The position numbers were made by a program, and so were the translations under genes. Positions 5,542 through 57,981 of a stretch of DNA of 57,981 bases are shown in pieces. The stretch comes from Selenomonadales bacterium. GTDB lineage: Bacteria; Bacillota; UBA994. The stretch covers positions 1 through 57,981 of the forward strand of contig JAGXRZ010000063.1 of NCBI GenBank assembly GCA_018335585.1. Reading direction: 5' to 3'. Numbering within the stretch: the stretch's first letter is position 1; every line of letters starts with the position of its first letter. A model generated the notes under the pieces. It made no database searches. It was given only the letters and a program-made list of their open reading frames with translations, and was not told where the DNA came from.

Positions 5542-5979
5542 GTGGAAACCGTCGGCAGTGGAAATTACCTGTCAAACAGAGAGTGGTTTAGAGATGCGTT
5601 AAGGGGACAAAACGTTATCCTATGTTACACATCTGCCCTAGAGTGCCACCAGCTCTTTCTTGGCTACCTAAACGAAAGTCAGATTGATGTTTATGCCTTG
5701 GACAAGGGAGAGTACTCAAACATCAATTACCATGTTGTTGAGAGTTTTGAGGGGATAGAGACCGTTCGCTTTGACGACTTGGTTTGCACCTCAGTAAACC
5801 AGACGGTCAATGACATGCTTGCCGACTTCGATAACATTGATGAACAATCGCTTATAGAGGCGTTGTGGTACTACTATGTAACGCATAACAAGAGCTTCGA
5901 CGGGCTAGATATTTCCCCACAGAATATGGCGCGCTTCGGCTCTATAAAGGACTGGGCTGTTGGGTACAAGGAGGAGTGA
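5542..5979 (+). CDS. AbiEi-like antitoxin (type IV toxin-antitoxin), 145 aa
   Basis: GTG start at 5542 with GAGGGGGCGGGG upstream. The protein contains LCYTSALECHQLFLGYLNE, a hydrophobic strand and an INQT/VNQTVNDML segment, reminiscent of AbiEi-type antitoxins, but it is shorter than classical AbiEi (about 200+ aa) and lacks an obvious winged helix. The assignment rests mainly on its overlap (TGATG) with the AbiEii nucleotidyltransferase gene, the typical antitoxin-toxin order. A paralogue at 19699 shares roughly 60 percent of residues by eye. It would neutralise the downstream toxin and possibly autorepress the pair. Confidence 0.6.
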   Translation: METVGSGNYLSNREWFRDALRGQNVILCYTSALECHQLFLGYLNESQIDVYALDKGEYSNINYHVVESFEGIETVRFDDLVCTSVNQTVNDMLADFDNIDEQSLIEALWYYYVTHNKSFDGLDISPQNMARFGSIKDWAVGYKEE

Positions 5980-6758
5980 TGATGACGGAGCGCGAAGCAG
6001 TGCTGTACCAGATGATGGGGGCATTCTATAAGGCGGGTCTTCCGTTAGTGTTTAAGGGCGCTTTGGTTGTTAAGGCAATTATGAGTGAACGCGGCTTTAA
6101 TTTACTTGAGAGAGAAACGCATGACATTGATGCTAACTGGGTCAGCAACCCGCCTGCAATGGATACGTTGGTTTCAGCGATCAATCAAGTGCTGCATGAC
6201 GAGATGAGTAGTTTTAAGGTCGCTTCCATCCAGGACTATACAGAAATGCAATCCGCGTGCTTAGGGGTGACTGATACAGAGACCAACGTCCGTTATGCCA
6301 CCATAGACATTAAGGTCAAACCCGGCACCAAGCACGCTGTTTACTGTGTTAATGACGTTAAGTTTGAGGGAGTCATGGTTAACGAAATCTTAGCTGACAA
6401 AATTTCGGTGCTTTCAGGCAACAAGATCTTTAGGCGTGCAAAGGATTTTATAGACGTCTATGCCTTGTCTCATTGTGTTGAAATAAAGGTGTCAGACATT
6501 ATCGATACTTGTGGAAAGGAAGGACGCACTTTATCGCCCTTTAGCGAGTTTTTAAACCGCAAGACAGAGCTTGAACATGCCTATAACAGGTTGCAGCGCA
6601 TAAGGGGTAAGCCCACTTTTGAGGAAATCTACTCATACATGGCAAGTTTTCTGCGGGCATTTATAGAACGATCCTCAGAGGACTTAGTGTGGAATAGCCG
6701 GGATCATGCTTGGGCCAAAGGCGATAGACATCCAAAGAAGCGAGCGGCAGATCGCTAG
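5979..6758 (+). CDS. abiEii: AbiEii/AbiGii-family nucleotidyltransferase toxin
   Basis: The product carries the DNA polymerase beta-like nucleotidyltransferase signature of AbiEii toxins: LVFKGALVVKAIM (KGxxx motif near residue 25), RETHDIDANW (the metal-binding DxD, near 48) and RRAKDFIDVYALS (near 153). AbiEii toxins transfer nucleotides to tRNA acceptor ends and arrest growth, and AbiE systems abort phage infection. Start choice: ATG 5979 overlaps the antitoxin stop, ATG 5982 has better spacing from AAGGAGG (5968-5974), and GTG 5976 is too close. Length of about 259 aa is slightly short for the family but all core motifs are present. It is followed by the remains of a fic gene. Confidence 0.72.
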   Translation: MMTEREAVLYQMMGAFYKAGLPLVFKGALVVKAIMSERGFNLLERETHDIDANWVSNPPAMDTLVSAINQVLHDEMSSFKVASIQDYTEMQSACLGVTDTETNVRYATIDIKVKPGTKHAVYCVNDVKFEGVMVNEILADKISVLSGNKIFRRAKDFIDVYALSHCVEIKVSDIIDTCGKEGRTLSPFSEFLNRKTELEHAYNRLQRIRGKPTFEEIYSYMASFLRAFIERSSEDLVWNSRDHAWAKGDRHPKKRAADR

Positions 6759-6860: not shown

Positions 6861-7099
6861 GTGAGATGCGGCGATAGAGCACCGAGGCCTTAAGTTGCTC
6901 TATGTGAAGGCCGACCGCTACAAAGACAAGATTGCAGCAGCATGTCCGTTAAGCGCACGCGAGGCCAAGAACCTTGACGAGTATTTCAAGATAGGGCTTA
7001 CCTTCTCTAGCAATGCTCTGGAGGGCAACACGCTGACCATCACCGAAACTAAGGTGCTGCTTGAAGACGGGCTGACGGTAGGGGGGCAAGCCTATACGA
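6861..7099 (+). pseudogene. fic remnant (5' third only)
   Basis: From TTG 6895 the frame reads LLYVKADRYKDKIAAACPLS and then the conserved FSSNALEGN inhibitory motif, nearly identical to the intact fic genes at 20236 and 31832. It breaks near 7081-7099: one extra G in the GGGGGG run shifts the frame and homology stops at CCTATACGA, before the catalytic HPFVDGNGR motif. Upstream the start region also carries a stop (CCT TAA). The gene is therefore inactive; the apparent reading frame continuing to 7266 is fortuitous. Confidence 0.8.
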
Positions 7100-20205: not shown

Positions 20206-20235
20206 ACGGTAGATCACGAAAGGGTGTGTTTGCGG

Positions 20236-21045
20236 GTGACATATGACCGAGGCATTGCGTTGCTTTATGAGAAAGCCAACCGCTATAGAGATAAGATTGC
20301 AGCTGCACGTCCGTCAAGTGCACGCGAGGCCAAGAACCTCGACGAGTATTTCAAGATAGGGCTTACCTTCTCTAGCAATGCTCTGGAGGGTAACACGCTG
20401 ACCATCACCGAAACGAAGGTGCTGCTTGAAGATGGACTGACGGTAGGGGGCAAGCCTATAAGAGACTACTATGAGGCGACCGGCCACGCAAAGGCCTACG
20501 ACTTCATGCTGACCTTAGCAAGAGACCGCAACACTCCGCTTTCAGAGGAGCAGATATTAAAACTCCACAGGCTCTTCTATGCTCTCCTTGACGAAGACAA
20601 CGCCGGGGTCTACCGTCAGGTCAGCGTCTTTATCTCGGGAACCGACTATGTGCCGCCGGGACCGGATGTGGTGCCTGCCGCGATGCAGGTTTTTGTGGGG
20701 GAAATGAATGCACTGAGGAGATCAGTTCATCCTATCGAGTATGCGGCACGCCTTCACAAGGGCTTGGTCGACATTCATCCGTTTGTCGACGGTAATGGCC
20801 GCACGGCGCGCTTGCTCATGAACTTAGCGCTGGTCCAAGATGGCTTTGGTATTGCCATCATCCCGCCAGTGCTCCGCGGGGAGTATATCGATGCTCTGCG
20901 TGCGGCGCAACGGGCCAAAAATCCGGATGATACGCCATTTTTGAGGCTCATCGCTGAATGCGTGATTGAAACTCAGAAGGACTATTGCCGGTTGCTCCAG
21001 TTGCCGACGAGGGACGAAATCGGGGAAGGCTTGTTGCGCACCTGA
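20236..21045 (+). CDS. fic: Fic/DOC family adenylyltransferase (class II, N-terminal inhibitory motif)
   Basis: The start is taken as GTG 20236, matching the copy at 31832 (both 269 aa); TTG 20230 has better spacing to AAAGGG. The catalytic motif HPFVDGNGRTAR is complete at 181-192. The inhibitory motif (S/T)xxxE(G/N) appears as S47-NAL-E51-G52, so this is an autoinhibited class II Fic enzyme, which transfers AMP from ATP to target proteins when the inhibitory helix is released. A beta-flap segment (SVFISGTDYVPPGPDVVPA) precedes the active site. It follows the antitoxin-like gene and precedes an array of hairpin repeats and a serine recombinase. A near-identical copy lies at 31832 and a truncated one at 6861. 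Confidence 0.92.
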   Translation: MTYDRGIALLYEKANRYRDKIAAARPSSAREAKNLDEYFKIGLTFSSNALEGNTLTITETKVLLEDGLTVGGKPIRDYYEATGHAKAYDFMLTLARDRNTPLSEEQILKLHRLFYALLDEDNAGVYRQVSVFISGTDYVPPGPDVVPAAMQVFVGEMNALRRSVHPIEYAARLHKGLVDIHPFVDGNGRTARLLMNLALVQDGFGIAIIPPVLRGEYIDALRAAQRAKNPDDTPFLRLIAECVIETQKDYCRLLQLPTRDEIGEGLLRT

Positions 21046-21130
21046 CACCACCCCGGCCTGCCCGGCAGGCGGGTGCTTGACGCAGAACGAGGGCACGGAT
21101 ACTATTAGGTGGACAATCGGTTTAATCCAC

Positions 21131-21240
21131 GGTGTTTCGCCACCTATAAGAGCGAGTCGTGTATCCGGGTGTTTCGCCACCGACAAGGGCGAGTGGTCTA
21201 TTCGGGCGTTTCGCCGCCGTTAAGGGCGAGTTGTAATGCA
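21131..21240 (+). repeat. Three tandem 37-bp hairpin repeats
   Basis: Units start at 21131, 21168 and 21205 with consensus GGTGTTTCGCCACC-nn-AAG-RGCGAGT followed by about 11 less conserved bases. Each unit can fold as TCGCC...GGCGA. The array is directly followed by a terminator at 21239. A two-unit version lies at the same position in the 31.8-33 kb module. Possible roles are resolvase binding sites (res-like) or a repeat RNA. Confidence 0.75.
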
Positions 21241-21271
21241 ACAGGCACGGGCCAGCCGTGCCTGTTGTTTT
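21239..21271 (+). terminator. Strong terminator after the hairpin array
   Basis: CAACAGGCACGG (21239-21250), loop GCCAG, CCGTGCCTGTTG (21256-21267), then TTTTCG. Shared with the copy at 32800. Confidence 0.8.
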
Positions 21272-21281
21272 CGACGCAAGG

Positions 21282-21305
21282 CCCATTAGGGTATCCCCTA
21301 GTGGG
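21282..21305. repeat. Palindrome upstream of serine recombinase
   Basis: CCCATTAGGG (21282-21291), TATC, CCCTAGTGGG (21296-21305); one mismatch. It may be a recombinase crossover or binding site. Also present in the third module (about 32841-32865). Confidence 0.55.
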
Positions 21306-21416: not shown

Positions 21417-21983
21417 ATGCTAGTTGGATACATACGCGTTAGCACTGCTGAACAAAACACGGCTCGACAAGAGTCTTTAATGCGCGACCTTGGCGTCGAG
21501 AAGGTGTTTGTTGACCATGCCAGCGGGAAGGATTCTGCTAGGCCGGAACTCAAAAAGCTCCTCGACTTTGTGCGGGAAGGCGATTCGGTGGTCGTGGAGA
21601 GCGTGAGTCGGTTTGCGAGAAATACGCGCGAACTGTTGCATCTAGTGGCACTGCTGCATGAGAAGCGAGTGGAGTTTATCAGCCGAAAGGAAAACATCGA
21701 CACGAATTCTCCCGCCGGCAAGTTTATGCTGACTGTTTTCGGGGCTATGGCCGAGCTTGAACGGGATTATATACTCCAACGGCAAGCCGAAGGCGTAGCG
21801 ATCGCCAAGAGGCTGGGAAAGTATAAGGGCCGGAAGAAAATCGAGGTCGAAAAAGCTAAATTCCGCAGCGTTTATGAGGACTGGAAGACAGGGAAGACAA
21901 CGGCGGTCAAGGCGATGGCCCGACTTAACCTTACGCGAAGTACATTCTACCGACGAGTTCGGGAGTATGAGGCGGGCCAATGA
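21417..21983 (+). CDS. Serine recombinase (resolvase/invertase family)
   Basis: ATG 21417 after GGAGAGGTGGAGAG. The 188-aa protein has the resolvase catalytic domain with nucleophile Ser in YIRVSTAEQNTARQ, the SRFARNTREL segment and GKFMLTVFGAMAELERDYI (E helix), then a C-terminal HTH (GKTTAVKAMARLNLTRSTFYRRV). This is the Tn3-resolvase/Hin-invertase size class, which cuts and rejoins DNA at short inverted crossover sites. It lies downstream of the hairpin array and palindrome, its likely substrates. It may have shuffled the repeated fic modules. A truncated copy is at 32898. Confidence 0.92.
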   Translation: MLVGYIRVSTAEQNTARQESLMRDLGVEKVFVDHASGKDSARPELKKLLDFVREGDSVVVESVSRFARNTRELLHLVALLHEKRVEFISRKENIDTNSPAGKFMLTVFGAMAELERDYILQRQAEGVAIAKRLGKYKGRKKIEVEKAKFRSVYEDWKTGKTTAVKAMARLNLTRSTFYRRVREYEAGQ

Positions 21984-22052: not shown

Positions 22053-23024
22053 ATGACGCGCGATGATGGTAACTTGCCATCGTTTTCAGTAGTATCATAC
22101 TTCTGCGGCTGTGGCGGTTTGGATTTGGGCTTCCGCGGGGATTTTCAGTATCGGGGAGAGGCTTACCCAAAATTACCTTTTGAGATAAAGGCGGCATTCG
22201 ATAACAATGCTGCATGCATCGAAACCTACAATCGTTTTTTTGGCGAACACGCACAAATGGTAGACTTATCTGCTGCTGACGCTAGAACAATTGTAACCTC
22301 CGATTTGTTGATAGGGGGATTCCCTTGTCAAGAGTTCTCCTCGTGTGGGCCTCTTGGTGGGCTTGACTCTGAACGAGGGCAACTTTATAAAGCGCTCATC
22401 AGGTATATGGAGGTGCACCAGCCAAAATTAGTAGTCGGAGAAAACGTCATCAACCTAGAGCGAATGGAAAAGGGTAAGGTCAAGGAGGCTATTGTCAACG
22501 AGCTCCAAGGGGCCGGGTATAAAGTCGAGGTGTGGAAGCTTTACGCTCCCGACTATGGTATTCCTCAGAGACGAACCCGGTTGTTCTTTATTTGCGTGCG
22601 TGCCGACCTCGATGGGTTTCCGGCGCAACCAAGGGCTGATTTCATACACGAACAGCGGAGTATTGAATGGGCTATCGGCGACCTGGTGGAGGTGACGGAT
22701 GAGAGTGTTCCTAACCAGAGTCAGTATTTCGGGGCGTCGAGGGCGAAAAGGGGGAATGGGCAGGGTGATGAAAGCAGCAAAAGGGACAAGCCTGCATATA
22801 CAATACGGGCCAACCCTAAGTCGCGAGTTCAGTTTCATTACTCGCTTGACCGTCGTCTAACAGTCAGAGAGTGTGCGAGGATTCAGACGTTCCCAGATGA
22901 CTTCGTTTTCACTCATGCTGCCACTTCAAGCATATCGCAAATAGGCAATGCGGTGCCACCAGTGCTGGCTTATCGCGTGGCATCCTCCATAGCTGAATAC
23001 ATGAAAAGATTAAGAGAGGTGTAA
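22053..23024 (+). CDS. DNA (cytosine-5) methyltransferase
   Basis: ATG 22053 with AAGGAGG at about 22040. All main C5-MTase motifs are present: motif I FCGCGGLDLGF (17-27), motif IV GGFPCQEFS with catalytic Cys92, motif VI GENVINLE (129-136), motif VIII PQRRTRLFF (171-179) and motif X QIGNAVPPVLAYRVA near 300. The target-recognition region is short (about 190-260), giving 323 aa. It is the first gene of a tight four-gene unit with a GHKL ATPase and a nuclease-helicase, so it probably marks host DNA to protect it. Confidence 0.92.
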   Translation: MTRDDGNLPSFSVVSYFCGCGGLDLGFRGDFQYRGEAYPKLPFEIKAAFDNNAACIETYNRFFGEHAQMVDLSAADARTIVTSDLLIGGFPCQEFSSCGPLGGLDSERGQLYKALIRYMEVHQPKLVVGENVINLERMEKGKVKEAIVNELQGAGYKVEVWKLYAPDYGIPQRRTRLFFICVRADLDGFPAQPRADFIHEQRSIEWAIGDLVEVTDESVPNQSQYFGASRAKRGNGQGDESSKRDKPAYTIRANPKSRVQFHYSLDRRLTVRECARIQTFPDDFVFTHAATSSISQIGNAVPPVLAYRVASSIAEYMKRLREV

Positions 23025-23027
23025 AAA

Positions 23028-25412
23028 ATGGGGGGGCATGCTTCGGTTGATATTACCCCAAAACCGCGAATTCTGAGGACGCTAGGAGATATTCCGTTTC
23101 AGCCGTGGCAATGCCTAGCGGAGTTGATTGATAACTCGATCGACGCATTTCTCGCGAGCGAGGCAAGTGGGGAAAATGGCAAAGAGCAGAGAATTGTGGT
23201 CAACTGGTCGAATGACTCTGTCGGAACGGGTGACCGCACGGTGGAGGTTTCGGACAATGCGTGCGGGATGACCCTAGAACAACTACAGAACGCAGTGACT
23301 GCGGGATATACCAGTAATGACCCCATAAACCATTTGGGGCTCTTCGGCATGGGCTTCAACATAGCGACCGCGCGCCTCGGCGAGGTGACTACTATAAGGT
23401 CGACCTGCGCCGGTGATACCCAGTGGGTCGAGCTGACTATTGACTTTGGTGAGTTGATCAAGGCAAGGCGCTTTCTCGCTCCTGTTAGGATGCTGCCAAA
23501 AGACAATCCACTTGAGTCAGGGACAAAGATAATCATCTCCCAGCTGAAAGCCGGTATCTCTGATACCATGATTGCTAAGGAGAGCGATATCAGAAGGCAA
23601 TTGGAGTCAATCTATACCCCATTACTCACGACGAAGGATATAATGGTGCTAGTTAAGGGGCGGCAGCTGTCGCCCCGGAACCATTGCGTCTGGTCGGATG
23701 CCCGCTATGTGGTTCACAATCAAGCGAATGTCCCAGCAAGGGTGGACATTGACCGTGATCTAGGACACTCCCTATTCGATACCGAGAAGAATTGCTATCT
23801 CACAGAGGATGAGGCTGAGCCGTATTACACTGCTCAGTCGACCGGCGAGACCCTCCCCGGGAACATTGTGGAGCGAAACAAGCGCCTTACCGGTTGGCTG
23901 GGCATTCAACGTTACGCCGATCCGAACGATTACGGCATCGATTTTGTCCGTAACGGGCGCAAAATAAGGATTGCAGACAAGTCCCTCTTCTTCTACGACA
24001 ATCCCTTTACTGGAGCGAAAGAACTTCAATACCCTGTTGAGCTCGGATCAACTATCGGTGGCCGTATCGTGGGTGAGCTGCATGTGGATTACTTACTGCC
24101 GGTCTATCAAAAGAACGACTTTAACAAAGAGGATACTTCATGGGCTCAGACGGTCGAGGCGATTTGTGGGGTGGGTCCGTTCCTGCCTCAAAGGCGTAAA
24201 GCATTGGGTTTTCCTCCGGAGGTTACTTCACCGTTGGGAGTGCTGGCAAATGCCTATCGCCGTGTCGACTCTGGAACGAAGTGTTTATTTGCGCCGAATG
24301 ACAAGGCGAAAGAATACGCTGGATATTTTCGGAGCGGACGACGTGAGTATATTGATGATAGCCTTTGGTGGAAAGCCGCCCAAGAGGAAGACCAGAAACG
24401 TAGTACCGGGGGAACGAGGTTGACAACAGCGGTGAATCCAGGCGACGCGCCCTCCGACGATCCTAGTTCATACCTTCGGGGGAGTATGGGTTCAACTATC
24501 GGAAGCGGCAGCACACCTTCGATACCTACGGTGCCAAGTCCTCCTCTAGTGCCAGTGGTGACATCGCCTGCAATGGCGACATCTAAGCTTGATGAGCTTA
24601 TTCGTAACTCTGCCCAAGTTGGGCAGCTAACTGGGAAATATAGCTTCGGCAGAGCAGCCCCACTAAATGTTCGGGCTTATGAGCTGAAGATCGGCACAGA
24701 AATTCTCGCAAACGGTGAGCGCAAGCCCTGCTTCTTTTCATCAAGCGGCATTGACTGCACTTTTGTTTACGACCCGGCGCATCCCGTCTTAGCACAGTTC
24801 CCAATCAGCCCAAAGGAGCTGCTGCTCCAATATCTAGCCGAGAAGCTAAAGGCCCGAGACAACCTTGCTGATGTGGTTGAGGTGTTCTCTACCCTCGTTC
24901 AGAACACAATGCCAGAGGCGAAGATTGACCGACAGTCATTACAGGATCGGGCGGCGAAGGCCTTTGCCACGTTGCGGGAAAAGATGGTCGATGCACTGAG
25001 ACCGCAGGCTATTAGCGTACTGCAGTGTATACATGAGTCCACTGGCGACGTGGAGGACACCGTAAATCGGATGCTCTTCAACCCAGCGCTGATTCAACGC
25101 TTCCAGACATGTCAGGAGAGCGGATATGATGCGTTGGAGTACGTGCCGGAAAAAGCCCTCTTGCGCCTCGTTGACAGGTTCCCCGAACGGGTTTTCGATG
25201 GCAAGGTGGTCACTGCTCCATACACAAGTATTAGTTTCTCGGATGAGAAAGCTACGGAGCGGAGCCGTAATGAGTCAAAAGAGCGTGTTATGTCGTTCTT
25301 AAAGGACGCACTTCGGGTGATGGCAAATACAGGTTTTGGGCAGCGTGACTTGAAGAACGAGCTGTCTCGCGCCTCGCTGAGCATCGACTTTCTGTTGGGG
25401 GAGTTGGTGTGA
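23028..25412 (+). CDS. MORC-like GHKL (HSP90-type) ATPase, 794 aa
   Basis: Begins 3 bp after the methyltransferase stop, with AGAGAGGTG upstream. The Bergerat ATP-binding fold is clear: N box ELIDNSIDAF (32-41), G1 DNACGM (76-81) and G2 GLFGMGFN (104-111), then an S5-like domain with the conserved Lys region (LLPVYQKNDFNKEDTSW). A Pro/Ser/Thr-rich linker (about 480-530) separates a helical C-terminal domain. MORC-type ATPases in bacteria occur in restriction-modification-like operons and are thought to clamp or loop DNA. It overlaps the next gene by one base. Confidence 0.85.
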   Translation: MGGHASVDITPKPRILRTLGDIPFQPWQCLAELIDNSIDAFLASEASGENGKEQRIVVNWSNDSVGTGDRTVEVSDNACGMTLEQLQNAVTAGYTSNDPINHLGLFGMGFNIATARLGEVTTIRSTCAGDTQWVELTIDFGELIKARRFLAPVRMLPKDNPLESGTKIIISQLKAGISDTMIAKESDIRRQLESIYTPLLTTKDIMVLVKGRQLSPRNHCVWSDARYVVHNQANVPARVDIDRDLGHSLFDTEKNCYLTEDEAEPYYTAQSTGETLPGNIVERNKRLTGWLGIQRYADPNDYGIDFVRNGRKIRIADKSLFFYDNPFTGAKELQYPVELGSTIGGRIVGELHVDYLLPVYQKNDFNKEDTSWAQTVEAICGVGPFLPQRRKALGFPPEVTSPLGVLANAYRRVDSGTKCLFAPNDKAKEYAGYFRSGRREYIDDSLWWKAAQEEDQKRSTGGTRLTTAVNPGDAPSDDPSSYLRGSMGSTIGSGSTPSIPTVPSPPLVPVVTSPAMATSKLDELIRNSAQVGQLTGKYSFGRAAPLNVRAYELKIGTEILANGERKPCFFSSSGIDCTFVYDPAHPVLAQFPISPKELLLQYLAEKLKARDNLADVVEVFSTLVQNTMPEAKIDRQSLQDRAAKAFATLREKMVDALRPQAISVLQCIHESTGDVEDTVNRMLFNPALIQRFQTCQESGYDALEYVPEKALLRLVDRFPERVFDGKVVTAPYTSISFSDEKATERSRNESKERVMSFLKDALRVMANTGFGQRDLKNELSRASLSIDFLLGELV

Positions 25413-27070
25413 TGAACTTCTATACGCAAGACATTTCCGAAGGGAACAACTGGAAAGGCCTTGTACGTGCGGTAGCGAGAATGATGGCACATATCGGATG
25501 GAAAGACACTGCCGTTATTGACGGCTCTGGAGATATGGGGGCAGACTTATTGGCGATGCGCGACGAGGGGGGAAAGGTTCTTTCCTGGGTCGTTCAGTCA
25601 AAAGCGGTGGCGGGAGACAGATACATTGGGCCAAGTGCAATGCAGGAGGCGGTGACCGCCTTGTCCTTTTATGGGGCAGAAATAGCGGCCGTCGCTACTA
25701 ATGGCGAATTCACGCACACTGCCAAGGTTCGGCAAAAACAACTGGAGACGCATGGCTATAGGCTGAAGCTTTGGAATGGGGCATTTATCAAGAATGTGAT
25801 TGACCAAATGCCAAACGAAAGTGCAGCCCTCAGAGAGCTTCGACCCTATCAAGAAGGAATCGTCAACAAAGTAATAAAGGCTTTTGACGAAGGCGGTAAG
25901 AAGGCGTTTTATATTGTCGCTACTGGCCTAGGCAAAACAGTGATTGCAGCGACCATCACGCAGCAATTGTGGGAGCGCGGGTGTCGTCGCATTCTGGTGC
26001 TTTGCCATCAGACAGACTTGGCGCAACAACTTGAACAGGGCTTCTGGCCGCAGCTTACGAAAGAGGTTCCCACATCCGTCTTCTTTGACGGGATACCTCC
26101 TAAGAATACAGAGGGAGTTGCTTTCGGTCTATATCAAAGCCTGTACGGCTACCTACCGGGCATCGAAGAAAGCCGATTTGATGCTGTAATAGTTGACGAG
26201 GCACACCACGCGATGGCGTATGGGTTTAGGGCCTGCCTTGACCATTTGAAGCCGAGGTTTCTTATTGGAATGACTGCTACGCCCTGGCGGGGAGACGGGC
26301 AGAACCTCAACACTGTCTTTGGCGAACCGCTAGCCAAGGTCTCCTTAGTTGACGGCATGGCGATGGGGTATTTGTCAAAAGTGGACTACCGTATCCTCTG
26401 CGATAATGTGGACTGGGACGGCATGCTAAGTATCAGCAAACAGAAGCTCTCCATTAAGGACTTAAATAAGCGCCTCTTTCTCCCTCAGCGCGACGAAGCC
26501 GTTATCGCTGAAATTCAAAACATCGTCAATACGGTGCCGACCCCACGAATTGCAGTATTCTCTCCTTCGATTGAACACAGCAACCGTTTCGCAGCGATGC
26601 TATCAGCCGCCGGAGTCCCGACCGCCGCCTTGTCTATCACGGACAAAGCGGAGCGGCGCAAACGGCTCCTCGGTTTTTCGGCTGGAAATTATAGTGCGGT
26701 CACGGCAGTCGATGTGATGAACGAAGGCATTGACATACCGGATGTGAATATCCTCGTGTTCCTGAGGGCTACGCATTCAAGGCGCATATTTGTACAGCAG
26801 CTTGGGCGTGGGCTACGGCTTTCGGAGGGGAAGGACAAGGTTATCGTTTTGGACTTCGTCTCCGATATCCGAAGGATGGCGGAAATGGTCGGGATGAATA
26901 ACGAGGGCAAAGAAAAAGGGCGAGAAAAAGAGATTTTGTTCTTAGAGCAAGGTTTTGTTTCCTTCTCCGATGCTAGGGTGGAGCGCTTTGTGAATATATG
27001 GATTGAGGACATGGCTGATCTCAGTGGTTCTGATGACGAGGTCAAGCTTACGTTCCCGGAGGGGTTCTAA
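25412..27070 (+). CDS. Mrr-like restriction endonuclease fused to SF2 helicase
   Basis: ATG 25412 overlaps the ATPase stop (TGATG), with GGGGGAG upstream. Residues 10-135 form an Mrr-type PD-(D/E)xK nuclease: GDMGADLLA (Asp45) and WVVQSKAV (Q62-S-K64), where Gln replaces the acidic residue as is common in Mrr enzymes. Residues 140-490 are an SF2 helicase: Walker A ATGLGKT (170-176), VIVDEAHHAM (DEAH 262-265), GMTATPWRGDG and QQLGRGLRLSEGK (motif VI). A single chain therefore can translocate on and cut DNA, probably guided by the methylation state. Confidence 0.88.
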   Translation: MNFYTQDISEGNNWKGLVRAVARMMAHIGWKDTAVIDGSGDMGADLLAMRDEGGKVLSWVVQSKAVAGDRYIGPSAMQEAVTALSFYGAEIAAVATNGEFTHTAKVRQKQLETHGYRLKLWNGAFIKNVIDQMPNESAALRELRPYQEGIVNKVIKAFDEGGKKAFYIVATGLGKTVIAATITQQLWERGCRRILVLCHQTDLAQQLEQGFWPQLTKEVPTSVFFDGIPPKNTEGVAFGLYQSLYGYLPGIEESRFDAVIVDEAHHAMAYGFRACLDHLKPRFLIGMTATPWRGDGQNLNTVFGEPLAKVSLVDGMAMGYLSKVDYRILCDNVDWDGMLSISKQKLSIKDLNKRLFLPQRDEAVIAEIQNIVNTVPTPRIAVFSPSIEHSNRFAAMLSAAGVPTAALSITDKAERRKRLLGFSAGNYSAVTAVDVMNEGIDIPDVNILVFLRATHSRRIFVQQLGRGLRLSEGKDKVIVLDFVSDIRRMAEMVGMNNEGKEKGREKEILFLEQGFVSFSDARVERFVNIWIEDMADLSGSDDEVKLTFPEGF

Positions 27071-27642
27071 TGCCGAAAGCGTTGCCGACAGGTGTTGCGG
27101 CCCAGCTTAAACGAGCAGTATTCAAAAAGGCCGACCTACACGGATATGCCTTAAAAGGGCGCGTAGAGAACGGACGTTTTATGGACGACCTTGTTAACGA
27201 TCCGGAGATTGGCGGCATAATTGGGGAGTATGTTGCAGCAGACAAGGTGAGGGTGTATATCAAGGACGGCATTCTCAACGCCTATACGAAGAGGAAGGCG
27301 GAACAAGTTCTTCGGGGGCACGACCCAGTCCAAGTTATCCGTAGTACATTCGGTGCGGGTGAGGTTGCCATTGTGGAGAATAAAGGAGAAATTGTCGTGG
27401 GCCGTTCCTCAGACGGACGATTCTTCATCGTTGGCAGGGGCACAGTGCTGAAATGGGAAAGTGCGCTTCGGAAAGTTCTTGAGTATATCGCCCGTCTCAA
27501 GAGGAATCACGTTGACGAGAATTACCCTTCCATATGTCTTCAACTGGCGGTCATTAACTATGGCATCACCGAGGGCGACAAGAACCAGATTACCAGAGCA
27601 CTAATGGCCGTTGGCGTTAAGGTGTACTTCTGCTCGTCGTAA
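27070..27642 (+). CDS. Unknown fourth protein of the MORC-type cassette, 190 aa
   Basis: ATG 27070 overlaps the helicase stop by one base (TAATG) and has GGAGGGG just before. No family recognised. The protein is mixed alpha/beta with segments FKKADLHGYALKGRVENGRF, GAGEVAIVENKGEIVVGRSSDGRFFIVGRG and LQLAVINYGITEGDKNQI; no transmembrane helix or catalytic motif stands out. Translational coupling indicates it is part of the system, perhaps as specificity factor or regulator. The FKKADLHGY... start followed by a beta-rich middle could be a small DNA-binding or scaffold fold; this is a guess. Confidence 0.72.
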   Translation: MPKALPTGVAAQLKRAVFKKADLHGYALKGRVENGRFMDDLVNDPEIGGIIGEYVAADKVRVYIKDGILNAYTKRKAEQVLRGHDPVQVIRSTFGAGEVAIVENKGEIVVGRSSDGRFFIVGRGTVLKWESALRKVLEYIARLKRNHVDENYPSICLQLAVINYGITEGDKNQITRALMAVGVKVYFCSS

Positions 27643-29967: not shown

Positions 29968-30230
29968 CGGTCGATCCTCGGAAACCCTTGCTATAGCTGG
30001 ACTTTGGAAGCGAACAGCTACACACTAGTACGTGTTGCAACCCCAAGCACCTAACTCTTAATCAGTGGGTCGCGCTGCCGGGTCAGTCAGCAAAAGTTCT
30101 ACCAAAAGTTCTACCGTAAGCCAGCCAAGAGGGGCATAGACGAGCAGAACATGTGTTCGCCGAAGGGGCCAAAAAGCATTGCTATTGCTGACTCCAGCCG
30201 AGCCGACCGAAGGAGGGCAAAGAGCGCTCC
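29968..30230. other. Gene-free stretch left of the tRNA fragment
   Basis: No gene seen. Contains a direct repeat AAAAGTTCTACC (about 30092 and 30104). If the tRNA fragment marks an integration site, this should be the right end of the element, where recombinase arm sites would lie. Confidence 0.4.
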
Positions 30231-30280
30231 CTACCTTGACACGGTAGAGGTCACAGGTTCGAACCCTGTTGCTCCCACCA
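30231..30280 (+). other. 3' half of a tRNA-Val(GAC) gene: probable attachment site
   Basis: CTACC-TTGACAC-GGTAG is a complete anticodon arm with anticodon GAC, followed by AGGTC, T-arm ACAGG-TTCGAAC-CCTGT, and TGCTCCC-A-CCA with encoded CCA. The 5' acceptor strand (GGGAGCA expected) and D arm are missing; upstream bases (GAGGGCAAAGAGCGCTC) do not fold as a D arm. A terminator follows. This is the usual footprint left when an integrative element restores its target tRNA at one end and leaves the displaced 3' half at the other. Confidence 0.75.
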
Positions 30281-32641: not shown

Positions 32642-32728
32642 CAGCAGACCGTCTAGGGTCCGGCAGGCGCGGGCTTGACGCAGAACGATGGCATATGTAC
32701 TACTGGGTGGGGAGCTGGTTTAATCCAA

Positions 32729-32799
32729 GGTGTTTCGCCACCGCTAAGAGCGAGTCGTGTATCCGGGCGTTTCGCCGCCGTTAAGGGCGAATTGTAATG
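32729..32799 (+). repeat. Two tandem 37-bp hairpin repeats (copy of the 21131 array)
   Basis: Units start at 32729 and 32766; both closely match the first and last units of the three-unit array at 21131. The middle unit is missing, consistent with unequal crossover between units. Confidence 0.7.
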
Positions 32800-32832
32800 C
32801 AACAGGCACGGGCCAGCCGTGCCTGTCGTTTT
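32800..32832 (+). terminator. Terminator after second hairpin array
   Basis: AACAGGCACGG and CCGTGCCTGTC pair around GCCAG, followed by GTTTTCG. Copy of the terminator at 21239. Confidence 0.75.
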
Positions 32833-32897
32833 CGATGCAAGTCCCATTAGGGTATCCTCTAGTGGGTTTGTATGGCGTTGTCCCATACGAGTGGCGT

Positions 32898-33010
32898 CTC
32901 TTTTTCGGATATGTGCGCGTTAGCACTACTGAACAGAACACGGCTCGCCAAGAGTCTTTGATGCGTGACCTTGGCGTGGAGAAGGTGTTTGTTGACTACG
33001 CGAGCGGTAG
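32898..33010 (+). pseudogene. Serine recombinase remnant (first ~37 codons)
   Basis: LFFGYVRVSTTEQNTARQES followed by LMRDLGVEKVFVDYASGR matches the intact recombinase at 21417 up to residue ~37, then ends. The start codon and the ~60-bp leader are deleted (compare 21320-21416), and what follows is unrelated, so it is dead. Confidence 0.85.
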
Positions 33011-33106
33011 GCACGAGCACCTCCACACTCAACAAACTCATCCTACCCAAAGAATAGCTCTGGTGGCAACACTGTCGCGGGCCAATGATAGTGTCGCGTG
33101 ACGCTA

Positions 33107-57417: not shown

Positions 57418-57750
57418 ACTAGTGCCTATGCCTAGTGCCTAGTGCCTAGTGCCTAGTGCTCAGTGCGACATTGATCCTTGAAAACTGAACAATGCAGGCG
57501 CAATTGGGAGATGAGAGCTGTGAGCTTTGAGCTGTGAGCTGGGATGCCCGGATTGCGCGTAAGGATGAAATTAAACAGACCCGTTTCTTTGGGCTTTTTC
57601 TACAAGCGACAAGCGAGTAGGGACAAGCGACAAACAAACAAGTAATTAAAGCGAGCCAAATCGCTTTTCGATGATTTGCCGCCGGGCGCCAGCCGCCAGG
57701 CGCCAGCCCTTGGTGTAAGCCGGAGGCTGGTAGCTGGTAGCTGGAGGCAG
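57418..57750 (+). repeat. Short tandem repeats in the pre-16S leader
   Basis: Several unrelated micro-repeats follow each other: TGCCTAG x4 (about 57427-57460), GAGCTGTGAGCTTT (57515-57540), ACAAGCG (57602-57632), CGCCAGC (57687-57708) and GGTAGCT (57729-57742). The region lies between promoter and 16S and is not coding. Confidence 0.7.
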
Positions 57751-57757
57751 CGCAATC

Positions 57758-57981
57758 TTTTTCGGAGAGTTTGATCCTGGCTCAGGACGAACGCTGGCGG
57801 CATGCCTAATACATGCAAGTCGAACGAACTAGAGGTTAGAGATTAGAGGTTAGAAGTTAGACGCAGGAGTTTTCCTCGTTCTAACATCTGACTTCCAACC
57901 TCTAACTTCTAGTTAGTGGCGGACGGGTGAGTAACGCGTGGGCAACCTGCCCCAAAGCTCGGGATAACACTCCGAAAGGAG
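57758..57981 (+). rRNA. rrs: 16S ribosomal RNA, 5' part (cut by window edge)
   Basis: TTTTTCGG-AGAGTTTGATCCTGG at 57758-57780 matches the Bacillus-type mature 5' end. It continues with CTCAGGACGAACGCTGGCGG, TGCCTAATACATGCAAGTCG and, after the V1 hairpin, AGTGGCGGACGGGTGAGTAA. The helix 6/V1 segment (57824-57912) is about 89 nt against about 33 in E. coli and is made of near-repeats such as GAGGTTAGA. The gene leaves the window at 57981. Confidence 0.97.

Follow-up and report, generated by a model that had tools for sequence, protein, structure and literature searches.

In the genome of a Selenomonadales bacterium (G000), three head-to-tail 37-nt repeats between a fic gene and a serine recombinase gene are, judged by homology, very probably an antitoxin of the ToxI type (type III), and the gene for the toxin ToxN is absent from their side. 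The fuller reading, a toxin-less ToxI antitoxin that has kept its function in addition to its identity, has in our estimate a little better than an even chance of being correct. The window referred to below is the whole stretch of DNA that was analysed, 57,981 nucleotides in length (assembly GCA_018335585.1, contig JAGXRZ010000063.1, forward strand).

Results

Organization of the repeat array

The array and its surroundings comprise the following features.

20224..21045, + strand: fic gene with SNALEG and HPFVDGNGRTAR motifs
21077..21105, + strand: predicted sigma-70-like promoter of the array, TTGACG-17-TACTAT (consensus 9/12; 0.3 expected)
21131..21167, + strand: ToxI-like unit 1; pseudoknot S1 GGUG/CACC, S2 UCGC/GCGA
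21168..21204, + strand: ToxI-like unit 2, without counterpart in copy 2
21205..21241, + strand: ToxI-like unit 3; compensatory change in S1, GGCG/CGCC
21239..21271, + strand: predicted intrinsic terminator, 12-bp stem then TTTT; homologue in G004
21282..21305, no strand: palindrome CCCATTAGGGTATCCCCTAGTGGG with central TA, probable res crossover site, outside the antitoxin
21417..21983, + strand: serine recombinase, Resolvase N-terminal domain

The three head-to-tail 37-bp units described in the initial annotation were recovered at 21131, 21168 and 21205, with units 2 and 3 being 84% and 68% identical to unit 1, respectively, and with a TRF score of 139. The unit core has five matches in the window where 0.24 are expected, and at least five matches were reached in 0 of 100 shuffles. 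With a repeat length of 37 nt, present three times here and twice in a second copy, the units lie inside the ToxIN-family range of 34-39 nt. The strong terminator proposed at the end of the array corresponds to an inverted repeat at 21239-21267, perfect over 12 bp, with TTTT after it, and the two-unit copy noted at 32729 is real as well, spanning 32729-32802. Promoter-like sites were also found 23-25 nt 5' of unit 1 of the same array in the related genomes G004 (TTGACA-17-TAGGAT) and G006 (TTGACA-17-TGATAA). The predicted fold of the 166-nt array RNA is more stable than those of shuffled sequences (z -3.0), the excess being less clear for the two-unit copy (z -1.8). An Rfam search with the window array returned no ToxI-like match, and the ToxN-preceding arrays of G004, G006 and G074 (L106) were equally without a match.

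The repeats match arrays that precede ToxN genes

When 100 related genomes were scanned by pattern for three units at 37-bp spacing, two further members of the family, G004 and G006, proved to carry the same array. Each time, array and terminator are located directly 5' of a ToxN gene (Pfam PF13958, E 2.8e-35 and 2e-33) that also matches PADLOC AbiQ, and the array plus terminator of G004 is 83.7% identical to window positions 21122-21272. A covariance model (R2) was then built from 19 two-unit stretches of such arrays and applied to 398 genomes from the phylum, matches of R1 or R2 with E > 1e-4 being left unused. At E<1e-4, R2 detected arrays in five genomes outside its training set (G277, G380, G362, G338 and G152), and in 5/5 of these the array is located about 50-80 bp upstream of a PF13958 match, directly before ToxN. 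Altogether, strong arrays were found with R2 in 12 genomes; ToxN adjoins the array in nine of them, and the remaining three (G000, G069 and G215) have no PF13958 match anywhere. The model also matches toxI of a Fusobacterium plasmid (L117) and of a C. difficile phage (L112).

The likeness extends to E. coli: a plasmid-borne toxI unit from this species has 21 of 30 core positions in common with the window consensus, and the full-unit comparison was matched by 0/5000 shuffles. In E. coli ToxI, G5, A19, A20 and G21 are structurally important (PMC8860590); these align to columns 4, 18, 19 and 20 of the window unit, which read G, A, A and G in every one of the 11 units that the window, G004 and G006 contain together. 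The resemblance to type III antitoxins that had been remarked on from the repeat layout is thus borne out by the ToxN genes that G004 and G006 have directly 3' of their versions of the array and by the blind R2 matches upstream of ToxN. The ToxN of G005, from the same family, was considered as a further case and set aside, the repeats upstream of it being unlike the window units. A comparison of the G004 ToxN with viral contigs gave no match.

Predicted fold of the units

Covariation indicates that each unit is an H-type pseudoknot and not a simple hairpin. The pseudoknot combines GGYG/CRCC (S1, positions 1-4 with 11-14) and UCGC/GCGA (S2, positions 7-10 with 22-25). In alignment A5, which consists of 21 hand-trimmed and related units from nine sources, with phage units taken by a fixed pattern and without two families whose loop 2 is longer, 98.8% of the cells agree with this pairing and 5/8 pairs show changes on both sides. 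Neither the pairing score nor the covariation score of A5 was equalled in 500 shuffles, and the number of doubly changed pairs was equalled in one of 500. Neither search model contained S1, and the covariation of this stem is therefore no product of the search. Of the TCGCC/GGCGA hairpin first proposed for each unit, four pairs stand as stem S2, and the simple five-pair hairpin was rejected because 14 of the 21 related units cannot form its fifth pair.

The toxN-less junction

As stated in the initial annotation, the window has no ToxN-like gene, and a PF13958 search extended this to the whole assembled genome (69 contigs, 96% complete), which gave no match, although the missing part may still contain a toxN. 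A search of the window for a toxN remnant with both ToxN proteins yielded chance-level matches only. In G004 and G006, toxN directly follows the terminator, as is characteristic of the ToxIN family; in the window the order is terminator, palindrome, recombinase, with no toxN at the position that it occupies in G004 and none found elsewhere in G000. The resulting junction, terminator-CGACGCAAG-palindrome, is common to window copy 1 and to a second locus of G004 (L100:4824-4938), and recurs in copy 2 with one base changed. The G004 locus is a decayed relic in which a fic tail is joined to the final portion of a unit, followed by terminator and palindrome. Because the junction is common to the window copies and this relic, the loss of toxN is not fresh; as inferred from the relic junction, the toxN-less state would either be older than the duplication in the window or have moved between genera.

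The two other genomes with strong arrays and no PF13958 match differ from each other. In G069, a single-contig genome, the array (L133:10113-10234, minus strand) has three units, a promoter-like site and a terminator, after which there is neither an open reading frame nor toxN; its S2 shifts from UCGC/GCGA to CCGC/GCGG between units. In G215 (L126 / L134), the array is followed by a toxN start that is cut after about 10 codons by unrelated sequence. The orphan array was also sought in three other genomes of the window's genus and was absent from them.

A second, partly reduced copy

Copy 2 is located in a duplication of about 1.3 kb that includes fic, array, palindrome and the recombinase start.

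32675..32703, + strand: predicted promoter-like site of copy 2, TTGACG-17-TACTAC, below the scan threshold
32729..32765, + strand: copy 2 ToxI-like unit 1
32766..32802, + strand: copy 2 ToxI-like last unit
32802..32832, + strand: copy 2 predicted terminator
32843..32866, no strand: copy 2 res-like palindrome
32907..33014, + strand: copy 2 recombinase, truncated after about 36 codons

Copy 2 has lost one unit and its -10 element is weaker than that of copy 1. The copies are identical at 71/74 positions of the units, 32/33 of the terminator and 93.5% of the fic coding sequence, as compared to 72-79% of the non-coding DNA on both sides. Counted as differences, array plus terminator has 4/104 and the non-coding flanks have 36/151 (p = 6.7e-6), which is why the orphan array looks maintained; the difference in conservation between array plus terminator and the fic coding sequence is non-significant (p = 0.39). 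Part of the conservation between the copies could stem from gene conversion. Simple gene conversion, though possible, is argued against because the conserved blocks flank a diverged promoter-leader stretch.

Further observations

Beside the array, positions 22053-27642 encode a C5 cytosine methylase, a GHKL ATPase and a ResIII/Mrr restriction helicase, probably a restriction-type defence cluster. A third, truncated fic copy (6880-7095; 85% protein identity) has no array, and positions 5976-6758 encode an AbiEii-like nucleotidyltransferase (type IV toxin family). The window also contains an Rfam tRNA match at 30213-30277 that was unreported by ARAGORN, and, where a 16S rRNA match occupies the contig end, several different 7-bp tandem arrays (57419-57861) just ahead of that match and at its start.

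ToxI-like units are also present on IMG/VR phage contigs of 72-173 kb (L118:615-688, L119:3951-4036, L120:2318-2342 and L173:10868-10924), with no ToxN within the stretch examined at any of these four loci. The two adjacent units of L118 differ in S2 (CCAC/GUGG in one, UCGC/GCGA in the other), which looks like mimicry of two antitoxin specificities.

Discussion

Two other roles, each tied to a neighbour of the array, were weighed. The initial annotation had considered an RNA that regulates Fic, and fic and array do stand together in both window copies, a fic tail adjoins the G004 relic, and fic too is conserved between the copies (27 synonymous versus 17 non-synonymous codon changes). However, the close Fic relatives in G006 (74%), G003 and G002 were checked for the array and have none, so that no fixed association links array and fic; moreover, no fic adjoins the complete toxIN loci that contain the same array, the gene order is reversed compared to type III loci, and the array has its own predicted promoter 3' of fic. 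The Fic protein also has an inhibitory motif, [ST]xxxE[GN] (SNALEG), that precedes the catalytic HPFVDGNGRTAR, and class II Fic proteins with such a built-in motif do not need a separate antitoxin. Control of Fic is therefore unsupported, and that the array has turned into a regulatory RNA antitoxin of this Fic is scarcely credible. It is also very improbable that the serine recombinase uses the repeats as accessory binding sites (res sites II/III). This would suit the distance of 176-286 bp between array and recombinase, and both close recombinase relatives in the taxonomic class, those of the window and of G004 (76% identical), adjoin an array. Nevertheless, most such arrays adjoin ToxN, the G004 toxN stands between array and recombinase, which lies 3' of it, and the units show compensatory changes of the RNA type. 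Furthermore, related recombinases in the spirochaete loci L023, L025 and L050 keep a similar dyad upstream and have no ToxI units there, on which ground we rejected the repeats as a res site. The res-site likeness noted earlier thus fails for the repeats and probably holds for the palindrome at 21282-21305, which would be the res site of the recombinase, separate from the array.

The main rival to a functional orphan is a relic, in which toxN was deleted, perhaps by res-site recombination, and the array is a functionless leftover that travels with fic and the recombinase. We consider this less likely than not, though it has several observations on its side: toxN is gone at the place equivalent to that in G004, copy 2 is short of one unit and its recombinase is truncated, the similar G004 locus has decayed to its terminator, and the G215 array precedes an interrupted toxN. 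Against this stand the better conservation of units and terminator than of the non-coding flanks, the intact promoter, pseudoknot pairs and terminator of copy 1, and the long persistence implied by the common toxN-less junction.

According to the functional-orphan reading, a type III (ToxIN-family) locus would have been reduced to its antitoxin half by the loss of toxN. The promoter at 21077 would still drive transcription of an RNA with three 37-nt H-type pseudoknots (two in copy 2) that ends at the intrinsic terminator. This RNA would bind and occlude the ToxN of incoming toxIN elements in trans, so that a toxIN locus, carried for example by conjugative elements in the family, could neither addict nor poison the cell. 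We give about an even chance to such a stand-alone antitoxin acting in trans on incoming ToxN. ToxN probably enters the family on conjugative elements, since the toxIN locus of G006 is located among the conjugation genes TraG, PrgI and TrbL. In the AbiQ and ToxIPa systems, 1.8 to 2.5 repeats are enough (PMC5086642), and the three units of the window array exceed this number.

A tentative generalization, to which we give somewhat less than an even chance, is that heritable immunity to ToxN on conjugative elements, plasmids or phages is the reason why bacteria retain stand-alone ToxI RNA genes. If true, this immunity would be the RNA counterpart of anti-addiction antitoxins, and if the orphan works, about 150 bp of non-coding DNA would disarm both the addiction and the abortive infection based on ToxIN. 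Toxin-less antitoxin arrays are missed by the usual route because type III loci are defined toxN-first, and our literature search, which was incomplete in coverage, found no description of chromosomal ToxI orphans. Covariance models found paired as well as orphan arrays, and a direct survey is therefore possible.

Among known systems, the window locus resembles toxIN/abiQ loci (E. coli ToxIN, PMC8860590; review PMC5086642) in having a predicted promoter, tandem pseudoknot units of 34-39 nt and an intrinsic terminator, and it shares with E. coli ToxI the core UCGCnACC-UUAAG-n-GCGA, including the AAG of loop 2. Unlike these loci, it continues from the terminator into a res-like palindrome and the gene of a serine recombinase, and toxN is absent there and from the assembled genome. 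The pseudo-ToxI of phage PhiTE consists of ToxI-like repeats without toxN that suppress ToxN when expanded (PMC3475682). The window repeats are likewise ToxI-like and without toxN; however, wild-type PhiTE has 1.5 repeats in a phage, whereas in the window, a bacterial contig, the units are complete, number three plus two, and are accompanied by promoter and terminator. Finally, chromosomal antitoxins such as Erwinia CcdA can counteract a toxin that an incoming element brings with it (anti-addiction; PMC7354431). In contrast to CcdA-type antitoxins, which are type II proteins, the antitoxin of the window would be an RNA, with a putative activity of this kind.
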